Shown here one piece after another: positions 2,813 through 14,307 of a stretch of 62,742 nt of DNA. Location of the stretch: NCBI RefSeq assembly GCF_008520305.1, contig NZ_ML703257.1, positions 26,831-89,572 of the forward strand. The letters run 5' to 3'. Each line of letters begins with the position of its first letter. The stretch's first letter is position 1. A program made the position numbers and the translations under genes. The DNA is from Mesorhizobium sp. SARCC-RB16n (GTDB lineage: Bacteria > Pseudomonadota > Alphaproteobacteria > Rhizobiales > Rhizobiaceae). The notes under the pieces were generated by a model that had not been told where the DNA came from, searched no databases, and saw only the letters and a program-made list of their open reading frames with translations.

Positions 2813-4330
2813 TCAGCCGCCGAGTTTCTGGATCGCGTGCGCTGACGTGGCAAAGGCGATGTTCTTCGTCTCCATGTAGAAATCGAAGGAATGGTCGCCG
2901 CCATCGCGGCCGATGCCGGAGTTCTTGACGCCGCCGAACGGCGTCGGCAGATGGCGTACATTCTCCGAGTTGACCCAGATCATGCCGGCATCCAGCGCAT
3001 CGGTGAAGCGGAAGGCGCGGGTGACGTCCGATGTCCAGAGATAACCGGTCAGGCCGTATTGCGTGTCGTTGGCCAGCGCCAGCGCTTCCCCCTCGTCCTC
3101 GAAGGCGATCGCGGTCAGCACCGGCCCGAAAATCTCTTCCTGGGCGATGCGCATCCTGTTGGTGGCGCCGATGAACAGCGTCGGGCTGACATAGCAGCCG
3201 CCGCCCGGGCCGGCGAACTTGCCGCCGCCGGCGGCGACCACGGCACCTTCCGATTTGCCGATCTCGATATAGGACAGCACCTTTTCCTCATGCACCGGAT
3301 GGATCAGCGGCCCGACCACGGTTCTCGGATCGAGCGGATGGCCTATTCTGATGCTCTTGGCCTTCTCCGCCACCAGCTCGGTGAACCGGTCATAGACCGA
3401 GGCTTCCACCAGCAGCCGCGACGATGAGGTGCAGCGTTCGCCGTTGAGCGAGTAGATCATGAACACCGCCGCATCCGCCGCGCGTTCCAGGTCGGCGTCG
3501 GCGAAGACGATCACCGGGTTCTTGCCGCCGAGCTCGAAATGCACGCGCTTCAGTGTGTCGGCGCCCTGTTTCATGATCATCGAGCCGGTGCGGCTTTCGC
3601 CGACGAAGCCGATCGCCTTGATATCGGGATGCTCGGTCAGCGCCTTGCCGGCATGTTCGCCCAAGCCGTTGACCAGGTTCCACACACCCTTCGGCAGGCC
3701 GGCCTCCTCGGCGATCTCGACCAGCAGCCGCGCGCTCAGCGGCGAGAATTCAGCCGGCTTATGAACCACGGTGCAGCCCGCGGCCAGCGCCGGCGCGATC
3801 TTCCAGGTCGACAGCATGAACGGCGTGTTCCAGGGCGTGATGATGCCGACTGGCCCGATCGGCACACGCGTCGTCATGTTGACCTGGCTCGTGGTCCGCA
3901 GCGTCTCGCCGTCGCGCGCTTCCGGCGCGCGGTCGGCGAAGAAGCGGAAGTTTTCGGCGCCGCGCAATGCGGCCTTGGCCATGAACTTCAGCGCCTGGCC
4001 GGTGTCCATGCACTCGACGAAGGCGATCTCCTCGGCGCGCGCCTCGATCGCATCGGCGATTTTGTGCAGCAGCTTCCTGCGCGCCTCGCCCGGCATGGCG
4101 GCCCAGGCCGGGAATGCCGCCTTGGCCGCCTTGGCCGCTCGGTCGATGTCGGCGGTGCTGCCGCGCGCGACCCTGGCCAGCGGCTGCAGATCGACCGGTG
4201 ACAGCGTCTCGAAAGTCGAGCCGTCGGCGGCAAGCACCGCTTCGCCGCCAATCTGGTTCAGCACGCCATCACGCTTGAAGCGGGCGAGGTAGGCTTCCGC
4301 CTTTTTCAGATTGCCTTCGAGGTCGGACAT
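2813..4330 (-). CDS. hpaE: 5-carboxymethyl-2-hydroxymuconate-semialdehyde dehydrogenase
   Basis: This 505-residue aldehyde dehydrogenase oxidises the ring-cleavage product of HpaD with NAD+. The ALDH signatures are in order: ITPWNTPFMLSTWKIAPAL near residue 160, the NAD-site GFVGESRTGS near residue 240, the general-base segment HFELGGKNPVIVF near residue 263, and the nucleophile segment NGERCTSSSRLL (Cys near residue 298). The C-terminal PFGGVKNSGIGRDGG is typical. The start MSDLEGNLKK lies 12 bases beyond the hpaF stop, in the same operon. Length and motif order match HpaE. Confidence 0.93.
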   Translation of the reverse strand: MSDLEGNLKKAEAYLARFKRDGVLNQIGGEAVLAADGSTFETLSPVDLQPLARVARGSTADIDRAAKAAKAAFPAWAAMPGEARRKLLHKIADAIEARAEEIAFVECMDTGQALKFMAKAALRGAENFRFFADRAPEARDGETLRTTSQVNMTTRVPIGPVGIITPWNTPFMLSTWKIAPALAAGCTVVHKPAEFSPLSARLLVEIAEEAGLPKGVWNLVNGLGEHAGKALTEHPDIKAIGFVGESRTGSMIMKQGADTLKRVHFELGGKNPVIVFADADLERAADAAVFMIYSLNGERCTSSSRLLVEASVYDRFTELVAEKAKSIRIGHPLDPRTVVGPLIHPVHEEKVLSYIEIGKSEGAVVAAGGGKFAGPGGGCYVSPTLFIGATNRMRIAQEEIFGPVLTAIAFEDEGEALALANDTQYGLTGYLWTSDVTRAFRFTDALDAGMIWVNSENVRHLPTPFGGVKNSGIGRDGGDHSFDFYMETKNIAFATSAHAIQKLGG

Positions 4331-8428: not shown

Positions 8429-9832
8429 TTAGCGCCCCTGCTGCTGGCGCGCTTCCCTTTTCTTGCGCCATGGCGCGTTCGCCTCCCAGTCGCCGGCCAT
8501 GATGCAGCCATAAGGCAGCACTTCGTCGACGATCTCCGCCAGGCCGAAATGCTCGATCTGGCGGCGCATCGATGCCGCGTTCTTGTAGGCGCTCGGCAGC
8601 TCCGAAATATCCGTCACGCCGGAGAAGAAACGGGCATCGATGCCCTTCGTCTCCTGCGCGAAGATATCGGCGACGCTGCGTCCCGCCTGCATGCGCTTGT
8701 GCTGGGTGCGCGAGAAATTGCGCCCGGCGCCGTGCGGCGAGAAGCCAAGTCCATGCGCCGCGTTCTTGCCGCGCGCGATCAGCACCGGCTCCGCCATGTT
8801 GAGCGGGATCAGCGTCAGATCGGTGGCGTCGTCGGCCCAGTTGTCGAACGCCGGTGTGGCGCCCTTGCCGTGGTAGAACAACCCATCCGAGCGGCGGAAG
8901 ACGAAGTTGTGCTCGTTCCAGAACCGGTCCGACACCTTCGCCGCCAGACGCTCAGCCGCCATATCGTGGATGAGCATATGGTTGCCCTTGGTCCATTCGC
9001 GGATCGTCTGCAGGGCGTCCCAATACTCATCGCCTTCCCGCGTGTCGGCAGGAATCCAGGCGTTCTGCGGCAAGGTTTCCGGCGACAGCGTCTTGCGCAC
9101 GCCCTCGGCGATCCTCATCCCCTTGCTATAGAGCCGCGCGCCAGGCGAGCGCGAGCCGTGATGGGTGACCAGCGCCGTCTCGCCGCTCGACTTCAGCGTG
9201 CCGACATAGGCGAAATGGTTGCCGTCGCCCTGCGTGCCGAAATGCTCGATCGCGGCACTGGTCAGGTCACGCAGCAAGGGGTTGGCCTCGAAACGCTCGA
9301 AGACCTCCTTGGCCGGTCGGATCTGCTGGCCGCGCGGACGCCCGCCCGGTCCGAAATGGGTGACCCCATGCACGGCATCGAGCAGCGCTGCCGGCGCTAC
9401 GCCGGCAAATACCGAGATCGCCATCGAGCAGCAGATGTCGGCCGAATGCATGCCGGGATGGATGCCTTCGGACACGGCGACGCCGCCGACCGGAATGGTG
9501 CCCGACGGCCCCGCCGGGCAGGCGTCCGGCATGATGGCGCCGGCACGGACCACCGGCGTGCGCATCAATTCGGTCATGCTGCGCGCGACCGCTTCGACAT
9601 TGGCAGCCTCATCGGGCGTTTCGGCCTCAATGTTGAGGTGCAGCGGCATTGAGGAAGCCGCATGCCGCGGCATGGCCGGCGGCGGCGCGAAACCGCGCGC
9701 GGCCTCCAGCGCATCGCCATGCGACCCGCCGCCCTCCAGCACCGCATTGGCGGCGGCCAGCGCCTTGCCGAACCACTTGCCCTGCGGCATGCCGGCGTCG
9801 ATCAAATCCTGTCCACTCAAAATCTCGGTCAT
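8429..9832 (-). CDS. rtcB: RtcB-family RNA ligase
   Basis: This 467-residue protein is an RtcB-type ligase joining RNA 2',3'-cyclic phosphate or 3'-phosphate ends to 5'-OH ends using GTP and Mn2+. Family motifs are visible in order: HPGMHSADICCSM near residue 125-137 (the D-x-x-C metal site), GTQGDGNHF near residue 200, HHGSRSPG near residue 225, YHGKGATPA near residue 310, and PHGAGRNFSR near residue 365 (guanylylated His). The start MTEILSGQ is chosen; 24 upstream in-frame residues run into Y RNA unit 7. It is the last gene of the Ro60-Y RNA-rtcB transcription unit. No rtcA cyclase follows. Confidence 0.93.
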   Translation of the reverse strand: MTEILSGQDLIDAGMPQGKWFGKALAAANAVLEGGGSHGDALEAARGFAPPPAMPRHAASSMPLHLNIEAETPDEAANVEAVARSMTELMRTPVVRAGAIMPDACPAGPSGTIPVGGVAVSEGIHPGMHSADICCSMAISVFAGVAPAALLDAVHGVTHFGPGGRPRGQQIRPAKEVFERFEANPLLRDLTSAAIEHFGTQGDGNHFAYVGTLKSSGETALVTHHGSRSPGARLYSKGMRIAEGVRKTLSPETLPQNAWIPADTREGDEYWDALQTIREWTKGNHMLIHDMAAERLAAKVSDRFWNEHNFVFRRSDGLFYHGKGATPAFDNWADDATDLTLIPLNMAEPVLIARGKNAAHGLGFSPHGAGRNFSRTQHKRMQAGRSVADIFAQETKGIDARFFSGVTDISELPSAYKNAASMRRQIEHFGLAEIVDEVLPYGCIMAGDWEANAPWRKKREARQQQGR

Positions 9833-9869
9833 GTCCTTCACTTTCGATACAGCACTGCACGTTGCGGAC

Positions 9870-10016
9870 GGACGACAAGGGAATGCGAAACATTTTTCCG
9901 CCACTTCGCGAGATGCGAAGGAGGGACACGAACCCTCACGCCTTTCGGCACCCGCTCCCTTGCTTGACGCAATTGGAGCGAGCTGCGTCTACCTGTAGTC
10001 TCGCAGGCATTCGTCC
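9870..10016 (-). ncRNA. Y RNA-like unit 7 (stem grafted in D loop of a class II, Leu-type tRNA body)
   Basis: Ro60-type stem: GGACGA (5') with UCGUCC (3'), carrying CGAAUGCC on one side and CUUGUCG on the other. Second helix: UGCGAGAC with GUUUCGCA, 8 bp. The body holds a long variable arm GUGCCGAAAGGCGU (9938-9951) and a T arm at 9921-9937. An acceptor-like hairpin CUUCGC/GCGAAG with 5-base loop is at 9904-9920. The 5' segment then reads GCGAAGUGGCGGAA. The D-stem halves GCG and CGC flank the graft, with GGUAGACGC on the 3' half, as in the D arm of tRNA-Leu. An anticodon-like arm CGCUCC/GGAGCG is present. The unit ends 37 bases before the rtcB ATG. Confidence 0.85.
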
Positions 10017-10026
10017 TTATTCGGTC

Positions 10027-10157
10027 TGGCGACAAGTGTCGGCAAGACAAACTGAGCTACTTTCCGTCCGGTGGGATGGAAGGGATGGCTTGAACATCCG
10101 ACCTTCCGCCGCTTTCGCCGCGGATGCTCTATCCTGTAGTCCTGCCTGCATTCGCCA
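10027..10157 (-). ncRNA. Y RNA-like unit 6 (stem grafted in D loop)
   Basis: Ro60-type stem UGGCGA/UCGCCA with GGCGAAUGCAGG and CUUGUCGCC. Second helix GGCAGGAC/GUCUUGCC, 8 bp. D arm is split by the graft: GUAGCUCAGUU on the 5' half and GGAUAGAGCA on the 3' half, stem GCUC/GAGC. An anticodon-like stem UCCGC/GCGGA encloses a GAAA-capped loop. The T arm is GGAUG-UUCAAGC-CAUCC. The acceptor-like stem CUUCCAUCC/GGACGGAAAG is imperfect (one bulge, one mismatch), closed by loop CACC. The tRNA body is in 3'-half then 5'-half order. Confidence 0.85.
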
Positions 10158-10177
10158 TTCATTCTCTTCTCTGCGGC

Positions 10178-10272
10178 GGGCGACAAGTCGAAGCGAGAAA
10201 CCGATCGATCAACCGATCGACGGGGCGGATTCGAACCGCCAGTGACCCATGTATTCCCGCAGGCATTCGCCC
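10178..10272 (-). ncRNA. Y RNA-like unit 5 (minimal: T arm plus capped acceptor stem)
   Basis: Ro60-type stem GGGCGA/UCGCCC with GGCGAAUGCC and CUUGUCGCC. Second helix GCGGGAA with UUUCUCGC, 7 bp. The T arm is canonical (GGCGG-UUCGAAU-CCGCC). It is followed by a stem CCG-UCGAUC with GAUCGA-U-CGG closed by GGUU, in the place of the acceptor. No D arm or anticodon arm can be made. At about 95 bases this is the shortest unit and shows which parts are indispensable. Confidence 0.78.
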
Positions 10273-10283
10273 ATTCAATCGGC

Positions 10284-10408
10284 TGGCGACAAGGATCGGC
10301 AAGACGGTGACTGCGCCACCTCGCTCCGAGGAGCGAGAGAGTGATTTGAACACCCGACCTCCCGTCCTTCGACGGGCGCGCTACCTGTAGTCCTGCCTGC
10401 ATTCGCCA
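10284..10408 (-). ncRNA. Y RNA-like unit 4 (stem grafted in D loop)
   Basis: Ro60-type stem UGGCGA/UCGCCA with GGCGAAUGCAGG and CUUGUCGCC. Second helix GGCAGGAC/GUCUUGCC, 8 bp. D arm is split: GGCGCAGU on the 5' half and GGUAGCGC on the 3' half, with stem GCGC/GCGC. Anticodon-like hairpin CCCGU/ACGGG has a 6-base loop. T arm is GGGUG-UUCAAAU-CACUC. Acceptor stem CUCGCUC/GAGCGAG is closed by tetraloop CUCG. Every tRNA arm is present, but the molecule is opened at the D loop and capped at the acceptor. Confidence 0.86.
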
Positions 10409-10420
10409 TTCTGTTCGCTC

Positions 10421-10551
10421 GCCGCGGCGACAAGGGATGATGAAACCCGGGAGTCCCGCTCGTGCCAGAGAGCGCCGCCAAGGTGAGGAGTCGAACCTCA
10501 CGGAGCATCCCATTCTTTGGAGCTGTAGTTCCATCCGGCATTCGCCGCGGC
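10421..10551 (-). ncRNA. Y RNA-like unit 3 (anticodon-side graft, irregular acceptor)
   Basis: Ro60-type stem GCCGCGGCGA/UCGCCGCGGC is a perfect 10 bp. Second helix GAUGGAAC/GUUUCAUC, 8 bp. T arm is GUGAGG-UUCGACU-CCUCAC. The 3' acceptor strand CUUGGCG has no 5' partner; instead a hairpin CGCUC/GAGCG with an 8-base loop follows, which could be a D arm or a shortened acceptor. UCCC before the graft can pair with GGGA after it, a possible anticodon stem. Of the seven units this fits the tRNA fold least well. Confidence 0.75.
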
Positions 10552-10558
10552 TTTGTTC

Positions 10559-10695
10559 GGGTGTGACGACAAGATTCTATGAAAACTGCCTTTCTGCTCT
10601 GCCGACTGAGCTACGGAGCCGATTGGCAGCCCCGGCGGGACTCGAACCTGCGACCCGAAAGTTAGGATGTAGTTCCACAGGCATTCGTCACGCCG
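10559..10695 (-). ncRNA. Y RNA-like unit 2 (stem grafted in anticodon loop)
   Basis: Ro60-type stem GGCGUGACGA/UCGUCACACC has 9 of 10 pairs. Second helix UGUGGAAC with GUUUUCAUA. The tRNA body is nearly complete: anticodon stem GAAAG (10590-10594) with CUUUC (10657-10661); D arm GCUC-loop-GAGC at 10596-10611; acceptor GGCUCCG (10614-10620) with CGGGGCU, two G-U pairs; T arm at 10635-10651 with one mismatch. CCA is encoded at 10624-10626 after discriminator G, joined by a 3-base linker to the 5' end of the acceptor. So the tRNA order is 3' half, then 5' half. Confidence 0.9.
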
Positions 10696-10748
10696 TCTGT
10701 TCAGTTCCTTTCCTATTCAGTTGCGGCCGAAACCGCGTAAAGCCCGTC

Positions 10749-10885
10749 GGGCATGACGACAAGGTTTGATGAAACGTCCCGCTCTATCCGCTGAGCTACG
10801 GGTCCATAGTGGCGGACCCGACGGGATTCGAACCCGCGACCTGGAGGTGAACAGCCTGTAGTTCCATCGGCATTCGTCATGCCCC
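10749..10885 (-). ncRNA. Y RNA-like unit 1 (stem grafted near anticodon loop)
   Basis: First RNA after the Ro60 gene. Ro60-type stem GGGCAUGACGA/UCGUCAUGCCC, perfect 11 bp. Second helix GAUGGAAC/GUUUCAUC, 8 bp. T arm is at 10821-10837 with loop UUCGAAU. Acceptor GGACCCG (10799-10805) pairs fully with CGGGUCC (10814-10820). Discriminator G and CCA (10810-10812) follow, then linker CUAU joins directly to the acceptor 5' strand. D arm GCUC-AGCGGAUA-GAGC is at 10781-10796. The body resembles an Arg-type tRNA with its 3' and 5' halves exchanged. No ordinary tRNA can be folded in the genomic order. Confidence 0.92.
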
Positions 10886-10930: not shown

Positions 10931-12502
10931 TCAGAGTTCGATCGCCTCGATCGTGCGCACCCAATGGTCCGGGTCGCCGCTCGAGAACAGCATCGTCCCG
11001 ACCACGTCGAAGACGCGGTCGGAGAAGCCACCGACATTCAGGATGTCGGCCTGCGACTTGGCCTGCCCTTGGGCCTGCGTCGTCGTGTACGGCTGGATGT
11101 CGATGCAGACCAGCTTGGCTGCCGGGTTCAACCCCTTCAACTTCTGCCATTCCTGCATCGTCCCCGTCCCCTGATGCGCATGCGCCGAGGCATCCACCCA
11201 GGACTGGTTGTCCGACACGAACACGACAAGGTCGACCTTGGCCTTCTCGCGCACCAGCTGTGCCAGCGGAGCCGAACAGTTGGTTCCGCCACCACCGATG
11301 GCGGCAAGCTTGGCGGCGTTGGTCATCACTGTATCGCGAGCGTTGAGGCGGATATCCACCACATTGTTCTCGAACGGCAGCACCCTGGCCGTCGCGTTGC
11401 GCCGCAGCATCGCGGCGGCCACCAGGGCAGCCACATCGATGCAGCGCACGGCCGACGTCGCGCCCTTGCGGTAGCCGGTGACGGGCGAGCTCATCGAGCC
11501 CGAAACGTCTGGACACACCACCACGTTGCCCTTGACCTCGGGCACGTTGCCGAGCGCGATTTCCATCGCATCCTGCAGCGCGTCCCGAACCACGCCAGGC
11601 ACTTTCGCATCGGCCACAGTGAACGCCACCATGAGCTGATACGGGAACACCCGGGCGCGCCGGATTGCCTCCGGGTCACGCAGACGCGCCGCCAGTGTTT
11701 CCGCGAACCCATCCACTTCGAACACGCCATTGCGAGCAAAAGTGTTCAGGTTCTGCCGCAGCATCTGCCATCCGGCCGTCCCGGCGATCTGCACCCAATG
11801 CTGGCGCGAAAGCGGCATCGAGGTCAGCATCTGGAACGGCACTTCGGGTACAGGCAGCGACGGATCGCGCTTGAACGCCTCGAAGGCTTTCACCACCTCC
11901 GGCAAGGCCGCGACATCATGCGGCTTGCCAAGGAGGTAGCCGTAAAGCGCCTCACGCGAGGCCGACTTCGGCTTCGGGTGAACCATCTTGACGACATCGG
12001 CCAGCGACGGATCGTTGCCGACCGCGGCCCGCATGATCTCGAAGTCGGCTGCCTGCTCGAGCCACGCCTGGACAAGGCGCTTCGGCCGCGTGCCGAGCGA
12101 CTTGCGCCCGGTGGCGCCCGAACGCATGACCTGCACGAAATTGCGCAGCATCTTGCCATTCCGCACGATCCGCCCGAAAGCCCGGTTGAACTCGTCGCCC
12201 TGCATCGAGGAGAGAACGGCCAGCAACAGCGCCGGCATGTCCTTCATGTAGCCCTGCTCGAAAGCGCGGACGGCGGTGCGGGCCAGGAACCCCGGCTCGA
12301 CCTGCCAGGCGAGCTTCAGCACCTCGTCCAGCTGTTCGCGCGGCTCGGTATAGAAGGTCGCATTGAACGTTCCCGTCGCCGCCAGCTGCGCCAGGGCCTG
12401 TTCGGGCGACAGGCGGTAGGCCCGGGCGCCCTCATGGTTCCTGGCATCAGCCGGCGGGAGCAGCTTTCCTGCAATCGTCGCAAACACGGATTTGTTCGCC
12501 AT
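10931..12502 (-). CDS. rsr: Ro60/Rsr protein (TROVE and von Willebrand A domains)
   Basis: This 523-residue protein is a bacterial Ro60 ortholog. The N-terminal two thirds form the HEAT-like TROVE ring that binds Y RNA on its outer surface and single-stranded RNA ends in its pore. The C-terminal vWA domain has its metal-binding MIDAS motif DVSGSMS near residue 333, with GGGGTNCSAPL near 404 and VVFVSDNQSW near 427. The ATG at 12502 is preferred over 12511 because GAAGGA lies 8 bases upstream, while the earlier ATG overlaps that ribosome site. It is the first gene after the sigma54 promoter; Y RNAs and rtcB follow on the same strand. Confidence 0.94.
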   Translation of the reverse strand: MANKSVFATIAGKLLPPADARNHEGARAYRLSPEQALAQLAATGTFNATFYTEPREQLDEVLKLAWQVEPGFLARTAVRAFEQGYMKDMPALLLAVLSSMQGDEFNRAFGRIVRNGKMLRNFVQVMRSGATGRKSLGTRPKRLVQAWLEQAADFEIMRAAVGNDPSLADVVKMVHPKPKSASREALYGYLLGKPHDVAALPEVVKAFEAFKRDPSLPVPEVPFQMLTSMPLSRQHWVQIAGTAGWQMLRQNLNTFARNGVFEVDGFAETLAARLRDPEAIRRARVFPYQLMVAFTVADAKVPGVVRDALQDAMEIALGNVPEVKGNVVVCPDVSGSMSSPVTGYRKGATSAVRCIDVAALVAAAMLRRNATARVLPFENNVVDIRLNARDTVMTNAAKLAAIGGGGTNCSAPLAQLVREKAKVDLVVFVSDNQSWVDASAHAHQGTGTMQEWQKLKGLNPAAKLVCIDIQPYTTTQAQGQAKSQADILNVGGFSDRVFDVVGTMLFSSGDPDHWVRTIEAIEL

Positions 12503-12535
12503 TGATCTCATCCTTCATTTCACACCGGTAGCATT

Positions 12536-12550
12536 ACAAGCGGCGTGCCA
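12536..12550 (-). promoter_or_regulatory. Sigma54 (RpoN) promoter of the Ro60-Y RNA-rtcB operon
   Basis: On the minus strand TGGCAC (-24), 5 bases, then TTGT (-12) give the exact spacing of a sigma54 promoter; the only departure is T for C in the -12 TTGC. Transcription would start near 12524, about 20 bases before the Ro60 ATG. The divergent neighbour rtcR encodes a sigma54 activator, which supports this call. Confidence 0.85.
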
Positions 12551-12708
12551 GTTTGGACGGCAAGCAGGTGGAAGTTCGCAGCGCTCCGGTTAACACATTG
12601 ATTTATTTATGAAAGAAAAATGCCGCTGAAAATCATTGCCTCTGGCATCGCGCAAGCCGGTGCCTGTATAGTGATCCAAAAATCTCGTTTCTTATAGAAT
12701 TGGATAAA

Positions 12709-14307
12709 ATGAGAAGACGTGTCGCCATAGGAATCCTCGGCACCACGCTTGATGCCGACGGCAGGGCCGACCGCTGGAAGAAGTGGCGGCCGACGGTGGC
12801 GCTGTGCCAGCAGCCGGGCCTGTTCATCGACAGGCTCGAACTCATTCACGACGCGCATTCGCAGCGACTGGCCACGCAGATCATCACTGACATAGAGCAA
12901 GTCTCGCCGGCAACCGAGGTCAGGCCGCACATCATCGGCATGAAGGATCCATGGGACTTCAGCGAGGTCTATACCGGCCTGCGCGATTTCGCCCGTGGCT
13001 ATATGTTCGATCCCGAGAAGGAAGACTATCTCGTCAACATCACCACAGGCACGCACGTTGCGCAGATTTGCTGGTTCCTGCTCACCGAGGCGCATTTCAT
13101 CCCGGCGCGCCTGCTGCAGCTTTCGCCACGCAAACACGGGACCGATGCCGATGTGTCGGGCAGCCACTCGATCATCGATCTCGACCTGTCCCGCTATGAC
13201 GCGATCGCCACGCGCTTCGCCGCCGAACGCGACGAGGCGACGTCGTTCCTGAAATCGGGCATCGCCACCCGCAATCCGGCTTTCAACCAGATGATCGACC
13301 AGATCGAGAAGGTGACGATCCGCTCACGCGCGCCTGTCCTGCTCACCGGCCCGACAGGAGCGGGCAAGTCGCAGCTCGCGCGCCGCATCTACGAACTCAA
13401 GAAGGCGCAGCGGCAGGTTTCCGGCGCCTTCATCGAGGTCAATTGCGCGACATTGCGCGGCGACCAGGCGATGTCGACCCTATTCGGCCACGTCAAAGGC
13501 GCTTTCACCGGCGCCCAGAACGAGCGTGCCGGACTGATGAAGTCGGCAAACAAAGGGGTGCTGTTCCTCGACGAGATCGGCGAGCTTGGTCTCGATGAAC
13601 AAGCCATGTGCCTGCGCGCCATCGAGGAAAAGCGCTTCCTGCCAGTCGGCGCCGACCAGGACGTGATGTCGGATTTCCAGCTTCTCGCCGGCACCAATCG
13701 CGATCTGTCGATCGGCGTGAAGGAGGGCAAGTTCCGCGAGGATTTGTTCGCACGGCTGAACCTGTGGACCTTTCAGCTGCCGGCGCTGCGCGACCGCAAG
13801 GAAGATATCGAGCCTAACCTAGACTTCGAGCTGCGCCGCTTCAGTGAACGCGAGGGCCAGAACGTCACTTTCAACAAGGAGGCGCGGGATCTCTACCTGA
13901 AATTCGCCATCGCGCCGGAGGCGATGTGGCGTGCCAATTTCCGCGATCTGTCGGCATCCATCACCCGCATGGCGACGTTGGCGCCGCTCGGCCGCATCAA
14001 CGAGGAGACGGTGCGCGACGAGATCGACCGGCTGACTTTACTCTGGCGTGCTGGGGATGCCGGCGATCGCGATGCCATCCTGGTGGAGGTTTTGGGTGTC
14101 GAACGGCAACGCCGGATCGATATGTTCGATCGGCCACAGCTTGCCACCGTGCTCGAGGTCTGCCGCGACAGCAATTCGATCAGCGCCGCCGGGCGAAAAC
14201 TGTTCGCCGTTTCGCGACTGCAAAAGACCAGCGGCAACGATGCCGACCGGCTGCGCAAATATCTCAAGCGGTTCGACTTGAGCTTCGAGGACATCGTCCG
14301 GAAATGA
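12709..14307 (+). CDS. rtcR: RtcR, sigma54-dependent activator of the RNA-repair operon
   Basis: This 532-residue protein has the RtcR plan. A CARF-like sensor covers about residues 1-180, with NITTGTHVAQICWFLL. A sigma54 AAA+ domain covers about 185-420, with Walker A GPTGAGKS near 215, GAFTGA near 265, and Walker B FLDEIGE near 286. A C-terminal helix-turn-helix lies near 480-530. The ATG at 12709 aligns with the E. coli RtcR start; an in-frame TTG lies at 12700. Known RtcR is held inactive by its sensor domain and released by a damage-derived RNA ligand. It is divergent from the operon it should control. Confidence 0.95.
   Translation: MRRRVAIGILGTTLDADGRADRWKKWRPTVALCQQPGLFIDRLELIHDAHSQRLATQIITDIEQVSPATEVRPHIIGMKDPWDFSEVYTGLRDFARGYMFDPEKEDYLVNITTGTHVAQICWFLLTEAHFIPARLLQLSPRKHGTDADVSGSHSIIDLDLSRYDAIATRFAAERDEATSFLKSGIATRNPAFNQMIDQIEKVTIRSRAPVLLTGPTGAGKSQLARRIYELKKAQRQVSGAFIEVNCATLRGDQAMSTLFGHVKGAFTGAQNERAGLMKSANKGVLFLDEIGELGLDEQAMCLRAIEEKRFLPVGADQDVMSDFQLLAGTNRDLSIGVKEGKFREDLFARLNLWTFQLPALRDRKEDIEPNLDFELRRFSEREGQNVTFNKEARDLYLKFAIAPEAMWRANFRDLSASITRMATLAPLGRINEETVRDEIDRLTLLWRAGDAGDRDAILVEVLGVERQRRIDMFDRPQLATVLEVCRDSNSISAAGRKLFAVSRLQKTSGNDADRLRKYLKRFDLSFEDIVRK

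Follow-up and report, generated by a model that had tools for sequence, protein, structure and literature searches.

Seven Y RNA-like units with apparently permuted tRNA bodies between Ro60 and rtcB in a Mesorhizobium genome

Introduction

Why would a single Ro60 gene be accompanied by seven Y RNAs, and are these all built to one plan? The question is raised by a 62,742-nucleotide stretch of contig NZ_ML703257.1 from Mesorhizobium sp. SARCC-RB16n (the window, meaning that whole stretch), in which seven Y RNA-like units, U1 to U7, lie between the genes for Ro60 and the RNA ligase RtcB. The crystallised Y RNA, 6CU1, is described in PMC11472068 as a circularly permuted tRNA. Judged from their sequences, all seven units share one Ro60-type stem but present permuted tRNA bodies, which are opened at the anticodon in U1 and U2, opened at the D-loop in U4, U6 and U7, and apparently cut down in U3 and U5. 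We consider it slightly better than an even bet (probability about 0.52) that the units form a set induced by tRNA damage, in which permuted tRNA bodies on a common Ro60 stem would dock the Ro60 ring onto tRNA-recognising proteins in different orientations.

Results and Discussion

Seven units share a Ro60-type stem

A preliminary description of this DNA had placed the array between Ro60 and rtcB, and that position stands, with the span corrected from 9870..10885 to 9867-10882 on the minus strand. The units are listed below with the evidence for each (MFE, minimum free energy; YrlA, Rfam family RF02553; R1, a covariance model of class B).

10751..10882, minus strand: U1, class A, Arg-like; acceptor GGACCCG/CGGGTCC with GCCA (Rfam YrlA, class A grammar, tRNA match, MFE fold)
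10561..10693, minus strand: U2, class A; acceptor with GCCA (class A grammar; YrlA score below the cut-off)
10422..10550, minus strand: U3, type C; T-arm and a hairpin, GCUCUCUGGCACGAGC, that resembles a D-arm; tRNA acceptor stem lacking (alignment of 19 sequences, consensus fold)
10281..10411, minus strand: U4, class B; entered by the Y stem at the D-loop, with a short loop on the anticodon arm and a closed acceptor (covariation; R1 126.8 bits, as a training sequence; MFE fold)
10175..10275, minus strand: U5, short; T-arm and one hairpin (YrlA 44.7 bits, below the cut-off; consensus fold)
10024..10160, minus strand: U6, class B (R1 108.5 bits, as a training sequence; MFE fold)
9867..10019, minus strand: U7, class B, Leu/class II type with variable arm GCC-GAAA-GGC (covariation in a 12-sequence alignment; Leu best match)

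All seven 5' strands (GRCGAATGC) and all seven 3' strands (CTTGTCGYC) were present, each on the minus strand. The 5' strand read GACGAATGC at 10878, 10689 and 10015 and GGCGAATGC at 10546, 10407, 10271 and 10156, and the 3' strand read CTTGTCGTC at 10763, 10573 and 9879 and CTTGTCGCC at 10434, 10293, 10187 and 10036. The exchange of A for G at the third base of the Y stem together with U for C on the opposite strand was precisely as first described, and the variants named for a second helix, which is common to all seven units, were likewise all found. Outside the array, both strands of the 62.7 kb window held two further 5' motifs and six further 3' motifs. In the class B alignment described below, two-sided changes were seen in 8 of the 9 pairs of helix 1. 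The broad features of a bacterial Y RNA include an adjacent Ro60 gene, which is present, and a Ro60-type stem with paired variation, here GNCGAAUGC / CUUGUCGNC, which all seven units carry; the original identification of Y RNA-like units with a common stem, most of them with bodies resembling tRNA, was in this respect sound.

The linker ACTACA after helix 2 was near-identical in classes A, B and C (window 10751-10882, 10281-10411 and 9867-10160, and many units of other loci), though the sequence downstream of it differs. It may be a second contact or a processing site.

U1 and U2 have the layout of YrlA

In class A the tRNA 3' half precedes the 5' half, the Y stem replaces the anticodon arm and the NCCA end of the acceptor is kept. 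Replacement of the anticodon arm is true of U1 and U2 and not of U4, U6 and U7, which are entered at the D-loop, nor of U3 and U5. A covariance search of the array for YrlA, as the preliminary description had proposed, split the units: U1 passed the gathering score of 69 with 74.7 bits, U2 (65.7), U5 (44.7), U6 (31.3), U4 (30.7) and U7 (25.2) fell below it, and U3 gave no match. U1 is filed as a predicted YrlA by Rfam, and U2 as one by its layout. The MFE fold of U1 contained the T, acceptor and D hairpins (z -1.78).

We compared the units with those of a locus sample consisting of the window and the best 80 of 177 Ro60 relatives in the named genome collection (81 regions, with locus handles beginning with L). 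The class A grammar recognised 108 units in 70 of the 81 loci and none after one shuffle of each interior. In half of the distinct class A units (45 of 90), NCCA came straight after the seven-base-pair acceptor stem, against a chance of about 1 in 64, although these 45 are not independent, many of the loci being related. Among the other 45, 27 had at most 7 nucleotides (nt) between the acceptor strands and no CCA. The stretch between these strands, NCCA included, ranged from 1 to 98 nt, and we infer that the acceptor junction of class A would be free to be cut, like the end of a mature tRNA.

Some first units of other loci depart from this pattern. Those of L046, L051, L053 and L054 (at about 6.6-6.9 kb) have repeat-like inserts behind the CCA position, giving an inter-acceptor stretch of 40-98 nt, and the CCA is lost in L051. 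The first unit of L050, L051, L052 and L071 has an extra GC-rich hairpin after the D-arm.

U4, U6 and U7 are entered at the D-loop

The preliminary description overlooked that U4, U6 and U7 are permuted in another way: the Y stem is inserted into the D-loop, and the anticodon loop has been lost. The order of parts in class B begins with G18-G19, the 3' strand of the D-stem, the anticodon arm, the variable region and the T-arm, and continues with the 3' strand of the acceptor, a loop, the 5' strand of the acceptor, U8, the 5' strand of the D-stem, A14 and R15. The Y stem connects both ends inside the D-loop.

This layout was examined in an alignment, A2, of 31 class B sequences from 25 sources, which were picked by a pattern asking for the T-arm, GG before the D-stem and the D-stem tail. 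In A2, 91.0% of cells were paired compared with 73.8% after shuffling, and none of 500 shuffles was as high. Two-sided changes occurred in 33 of 39 pairs (shuffled, 19.7) and in 212 cells altogether (shuffled, 60.1). When the partner was shifted by 1-3 columns, pairing fell to 37-53%, a control that favours the proposed structure on pairing since that structure was derived from the first row. Nine bases were invariant in all 31 sequences (U8, G10, C11, C13, A14, G53, T55, C56 and C61), GG in the D-loop tail was also found in 31 of 31, A58 in 29 and a G-C pair at 15-48 in 28, although this constancy is partly built in because the picking pattern asked for several of these bases. Among the R1 matches listed, 20 of at least 70 bits lay outside the picking pattern; GG in the D-loop tail was kept in all 20 and the D-stem tail motif in 19.

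The anticodon arm of class B ended in a loop of 3-5 nt in 27 of the 31 sequences (14 GNRA and 3 UNCG), and in the other four the simple pairing rule used here stopped early. None of the 31 had a 7-nt anticodon loop. By the same rule, 19 of the 31 had an acceptor stem capped by a 3-5-nt loop.

For the individual units, U6 folded alone gave the class B arms and D-stem (MFE, z -3.30), and in the fold of U4 these arms were again present, but the D-stem was shifted by two bases (z -2.73). The strict class B grammar missed U6 and U7 because of acceptor bulges and the variable arm, so that alignments and the covariance model were used instead. The U7-type alignment, A5 (12 sequences), was 97.1% paired with two-sided changes in 14 of 36 pairs, and 0 of 500 shuffles reached it on either count. 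R1 does not decide the class of U7, as its 61.6 bits are no more than those of the class A unit U1 (60.9). In L069, L071 and L072 (7111-7236, 6947-7072 and 7115-7240), class B-like units have a CGCATCAAGGCG hairpin in place of the T-loop and keep the D side.

Could the units instead be decayed tandem or permuted tRNA genes? T-arms were recognised in 278 of the 354 units counted in the 81 regions, compared with a mean of 9.75 and a maximum of 17 over 20 shuffles of the unit interiors, and sub-threshold YrlA matches (about 45 bits) occur elsewhere at closely spaced tandem sites that were read as tandem tRNA genes. However, ARAGORN identified no tRNA genes in the window, the acceptor strands pair within a unit with two-sided changes, the 7-nt anticodon loop is absent from all 31 class B sequences, and the counted units carry the Y stem by construction, such units being rare in controls. 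This explanation is very improbable and was dropped; neither the 7-nt anticodon loop nor the detectable gene expected of tRNA genes was found.

U3 and U5 appear to be partial bodies

Units resembling U3 were found by the motif of the second hairpin with two mismatches allowed (23 units, of which 19 were aligned). They retain a T-arm that contains TTCGACT, together with the hairpin GCUCUCUGGCACGAGC, which has GG in its loop and looks like a D-arm; since the units were picked by this hairpin, its constancy is no evidence. The T-arm of the U3-like units showed two-sided changes in 4 of 6 pairs. By eye it is plausible that U3 and U5 are partial tRNA bodies, cut down to the elbow or the T-arm, although covariation for this is weak.

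tRNA identity of the bodies

The bodies were compared with the 47 distinct tRNAs of the nearest genome, with rotation allowed and with 25 shuffles each, whose coarser cuts slightly favour the real units. The best scores, with the shuffle maximum in brackets, were Arg 77 (36.5) for U1, Arg(cct) 57.5 (41.5) for U2, Thr 44 (40) for U4, Pro 43.5 (32.5) for U5, Trp 37 (33) for U6 and Leu 46 (40) for U7. U3 reached 30 against these tRNAs, no higher than its shuffle maximum of 35.5. Without rotation the best scores for U1 to U7 were 55, 40.5, 30, 44, 35, 35.5 and 46, so rotation raised U1, U2 and U5, hardly raised U6 and did not raise U3, U4 or U7.

It had been suggested that each body resembles a different tRNA. 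The bodies do differ, but the resemblance is secure only for U1 (Arg) and U7 (Leu, with its variable arm). The best match of U2 is also Arg, as for U1, U3 does not rise above shuffles, and the isotypes of U4, U5 and U6, as read from sequence comparison, are uncertain.

Arrays in related genomes

Units of the locus sample were counted with a finder that needs both strands and both helices within 2 kb behind Ro60 and does not require a T-arm. It identified 354 units behind Ro60 in the 81 regions and 5 on the reverse strand; three mononucleotide shuffles gave 5, 1 and 1 units, and 2 were found upstream of Ro60 in the 80 named loci. The finder undercounts: for example, it gives 5 units in L044, whereas seven 5' motifs are seen in L001, whose contig has the same length. 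There was 1 unit in one locus, 2 in nine, 3 in 18, 4 in 16, 5 in 14, 6 in 14 and 7 in nine. The proposal that the seven copies are an expansion holds only in part: at least 3 units occur in 71 of 81 loci and 3-7 are common in relatives, so that seven is the top of the counted range and no exception.

Of the 354 units, 106 were sorted into class A, 62 into class B and 23 into type C; in 88 a T-arm was the sole tRNA feature recognised, and in the remaining 75 none was. Strict regular grammars gave lower bounds of 108 class A and 31 class B units, with 0 and 0 on one shuffle. A Ro60 match was present in 13 of 101 related genomes, nine of which belong to the genus of the nearest genome (L001-L009). 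In these nine loci, read by eye, the units keep the same order with some losses and replacements.

Several arrays contain bodies of other kinds. Those of L070, L071, L072 and L083 include a further unit type that has no T-loop and shares a common stretch like CACCGTTATCGGGAG. A Ser/Leu-like D-arm body (GTGGCCGA) stands in place of the U2 body, with a similar Y stem, in the second unit of L048 and at the second position of L005 and L008, which looks like a body replacement. In L107 the last Y unit is followed immediately by a tRNA-Gln(ttg) gene (3156-3231).

The units might instead be redundant copies, which only raise Y RNA dosage or regulate access to the Ro60 ring and whose bodies differ by drift. 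Copy number does vary from 1 to 7 between loci, units differ among close relatives, and 163 of 354 units have a T-arm only or nothing recognised. Against this, layout and order are alike across Mesorhizobium loci, the class B helices change on both sides without losing their pairing, and all 20 unpicked matches retain GG in the D-loop tail. We consider redundancy an improbable explanation of the set.

Class B in the YrlA and R1 searches

U4, U6 and U7 scored below background with the YrlA model (30.7, 31.3 and 25.2 bits, cut-off 69). Of class B units in five other loci, that of L107 scored 35.4 bits and those of L066, L070, L075 and L113 had no match at E 0.001. The YrlA cut-off was passed in 4 of 398 genomes of the phylum and in 0 of 14 controls. 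A relaxed YrlA threshold was rejected as a test of membership, with matches at E 0.001 in 140 of the 398 genomes and in 6 of the 14 control genomes. We read the matches of up to about 46 bits, which lie close together in other genomes, as tandem tRNA genes.

At E 0.01, R1 gave 369 matches in the window and the 80 loci. Among the matches listed, at least 61 had at least 70 bits, in at least 45 of the 81 sources, and 30 of the 61 are training sequences. In the 101 related genomes, R1 matches at E 0.001 occurred in 83, mostly as weak background, and Ro60 in only 13; the 12 genomes with listed matches of at least 49 bits all had a Ro60 match, and among genomes lacking Ro60 the highest listed score, 48.2 bits, belonged to an ordinary tRNA-Thr gene. 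Whole-genome E-values of R1 were discarded as evidence on account of these 83 genomes and the tRNA-Thr gene. They are too optimistic, and we therefore used bits and position, with R1 matches below about 49 bits counted only by their place in an array.

In the sample of 398 genomes from the phylum, 12 had R1 matches at E 1e-8 or better, and matches of at least 98 bits occurred solely in genomes sharing the genus, family or class of the nearest genome. Listed matches of at least 70 bits were also found in four named records outside Alphaproteobacteria: Acidovorax (79.5), Paracidovorax (89.4), a metagenome-assembled genome under the label Desulfuromonas (70.5) and a record that carries the label Mycobacterium sp. 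KBS0706 (112.2). The last label may be wrong, because the Ro60 proteins of that record and of Inquilinus, with 71 and 72% identity to the query, rank side by side.

The Ro60, rtcB and rtcR genes

The genes around the array, with the evidence in brackets, are as follows.

10931..12502, minus strand: Ro60/Rsr (TROVE and vWA), first gene of the operon (Pfam, PDB 2nvo match)
12535..12550, minus strand: putative sigma-54-type promoter-like site TGGCACGCCGCTTGTA, upstream of Ro60 (consensus scan, two mismatches allowed)
12700..14307, plus strand: rtcR, divergent activator with RtcR N-terminal and sigma-54 interaction domains (Pfam RtcR E=8e-80, Sigma54_activat E=1.5e-49)
8429..9832, minus strand: rtcB RNA ligase, start ATG at 9832 (Pfam RtcB E=8.8e-33; start taken from conserved context around ATGACCGAGAT)

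On the minus strand the order is Ro60 (10931-12502), the seven units (10882 to 9867) and rtcB (9832-8429), with rtcR divergent, an arrangement that reads as operon-like. The Ro60 open reading frame opens at 12511, and alignment of relatives points to a conserved start, MANK, at 12502. Its product matched vWA_Ro60 (E=2e-18) and TROVE (E=3e-4; 20.4 bits, under the cut-off of 23) in Pfam, and matched D. radiodurans Rsr (PDB 2nvo) across residues 20-498 with E=1.8e-21. The top identities among named relatives were 93% and then 92% (M. amorphae). The longest rtcB open reading frame (8429-9904) begins within U7; a start at 9904 would overlap that unit, and the conserved ATG is at 9832. Across the 80 named Ro60 loci, RtcR was found in 78, always on the opposite strand, and RtcB in 68, always downstream on the Ro60 strand.

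The position of the units directly between Ro60 and rtcB, with RtcR adjacent, might indicate that the tRNA-like RNAs bind RtcR, or that RtcB ligates or circularises them, so as to tune or end the response. However, the RtcR signal is RNA with a 2',3'-cyclic phosphate end, according to PMC9879122, and the units bear no sign of such an end. A feedback or substrate role of this kind is, in our judgement, a long shot.

Proposed role of the array

We propose that a broken tRNA would activate RtcR, and that Ro60, the seven RNAs and RtcB would be turned on together. Each Y RNA would dock the Ro60 ring through the common stem, and its tRNA-shaped body would attach the ring to a tRNA-recognising protein, PNPase being known for YrlA and others being possible. 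Class A would hold Ro60 at the anticodon end and leave the elbow and acceptor free, and class B would hold it at the elbow corner and leave the anticodon stem and acceptor arms free. As the point at which the Y stem departs from the tRNA body is not the same in all units, the set would address several faces of tRNA-binding enzymes while tRNA is being degraded or repaired. Loss of the anticodon would keep the RNAs out of translation and beyond the reach of anticodon nucleases.

We give an even chance to the view that the D-loop-entry Y RNAs of class B are a second kind of tRNA mimic, in which the Ro60 stem opens the cloverleaf at its D-loop, a short, stable loop takes the place of the anticodon loop, the acceptor is sealed and most of the tRNA core is kept. 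On this view Ro60 loci, mainly of Alphaproteobacteria, carry differently opened sets, which would bring the one ring onto different faces of tRNA-binding enzymes once tRNA has been damaged.

A number of observations weigh against the docking proposal or against the body types on which it builds. The MFE fold of U2 had no T-arm and was hardly better than shuffles (z -0.77), U1 (z -1.78) and U3 (z -1.62) folded only modestly better than theirs, and U5 hardly did so (z -1.20). U3 and U5 show little covariation, the U5-like consensus fold having two-sided changes in only 2 of 27 pairs among 11 close sequences. The single-sequence MFE fold of U7 pairs otherwise and has no tRNA-like layout. In the sequence comparison, rotation left the scores of U4 and U7 unchanged and raised that of U6 only slightly, because a D-loop-opened tRNA mostly stays in normal order, and the permutation of these three units consequently rests on structure. 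Only 12 of the 20 unpicked class B-like matches had a strict T-arm and 8 did not keep the T-loop. The D side thus stands, but the T-loop is less constant than it looks in A2. Finally, 75 of the 354 units have no recognised tRNA feature and 88 a T-arm only, and paralogue diversity could be drift.

The main rival to docking is that the units are decoys, tRNA mimics that titrate tRNA-cleaving nucleases (toxins, or phage or prophage effectors), with Ro60 merely stabilising them and different bodies matching different nucleases. Induction of the operon by tRNA damage would suit such a role, several bodies per array would suit several attackers, the short-looped anticodon arms would be poor cleavage targets, and YrlA has been suggested in PMC7790460 as a competitive inhibitor of an anticodon nuclease. 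However, class B has no 7-nt anticodon loop and hence does not imitate that part for anticodon nucleases, and a decoy role alone does not explain the conserved Ro60 stem. We regard the decoy model as unlikely, and prefer docking of the Ro60 ring by differently opened bodies.

Comparison with known systems

Because U4, U6 and U7 are entered at the D-loop, they were not filed as YrlA; by layout we regard them as probable Y RNAs of another kind, and their novelty as provisional. In the open literature searched, a scope that leaves central Y RNA studies outside, we found among the papers listed no description of D-loop-entry Y RNAs or of arrays of this size.

Like YrlA (RF02553; S. Typhimurium YrlA, 6CU1), the units have a Ro60 stem, a second helix, a circularly permuted tRNA-like body and a Ro60/rtcB neighbourhood. 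Unlike YrlA, U4, U6 and U7 are permuted at the D-loop, keep a short-looped anticodon arm and have a closed acceptor (25-31 bits, cut-off 69), and U3 and U5 look like partial bodies. The Salmonella rsr-yrlBA-rtcBA operon, as described in PMC9879122 and PMC7790460, has the same divergent rtcR, sigma-54-type site, leading Ro60 gene, Y RNAs and then rtcB, but with two Y RNAs rather than the seven of several body types found here. As proposed for the D. radiodurans Y RNA and RYPER (Ro60-Y RNA-PNPase; PMC4726728 and PMC8394870), the portion of the RNA outside the Ro60 stem would, in our model, link Ro60 to an effector. Our proposal differs from RYPER in that PNPase is a candidate partner for the class B, class C and U5-type bodies.

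Circularly permuted tRNA genes of algae and archaea encode the 3' half before the 5' half, as do units here, but the latter have no 7-nt anticodon loop and contain an inserted Ro60-type stem. Known bacterial Y RNAs are tRNA mimics opened at one place, and a second opening was found in the same arrays. Its erased anticodon and mostly kept tRNA core separate looking like a tRNA from working as one, and together the units form a naturally occurring set, with anticodon entry, D-loop entry, elbow and T-arm, for testing which tRNA-binding protein each Ro60 particle meets.

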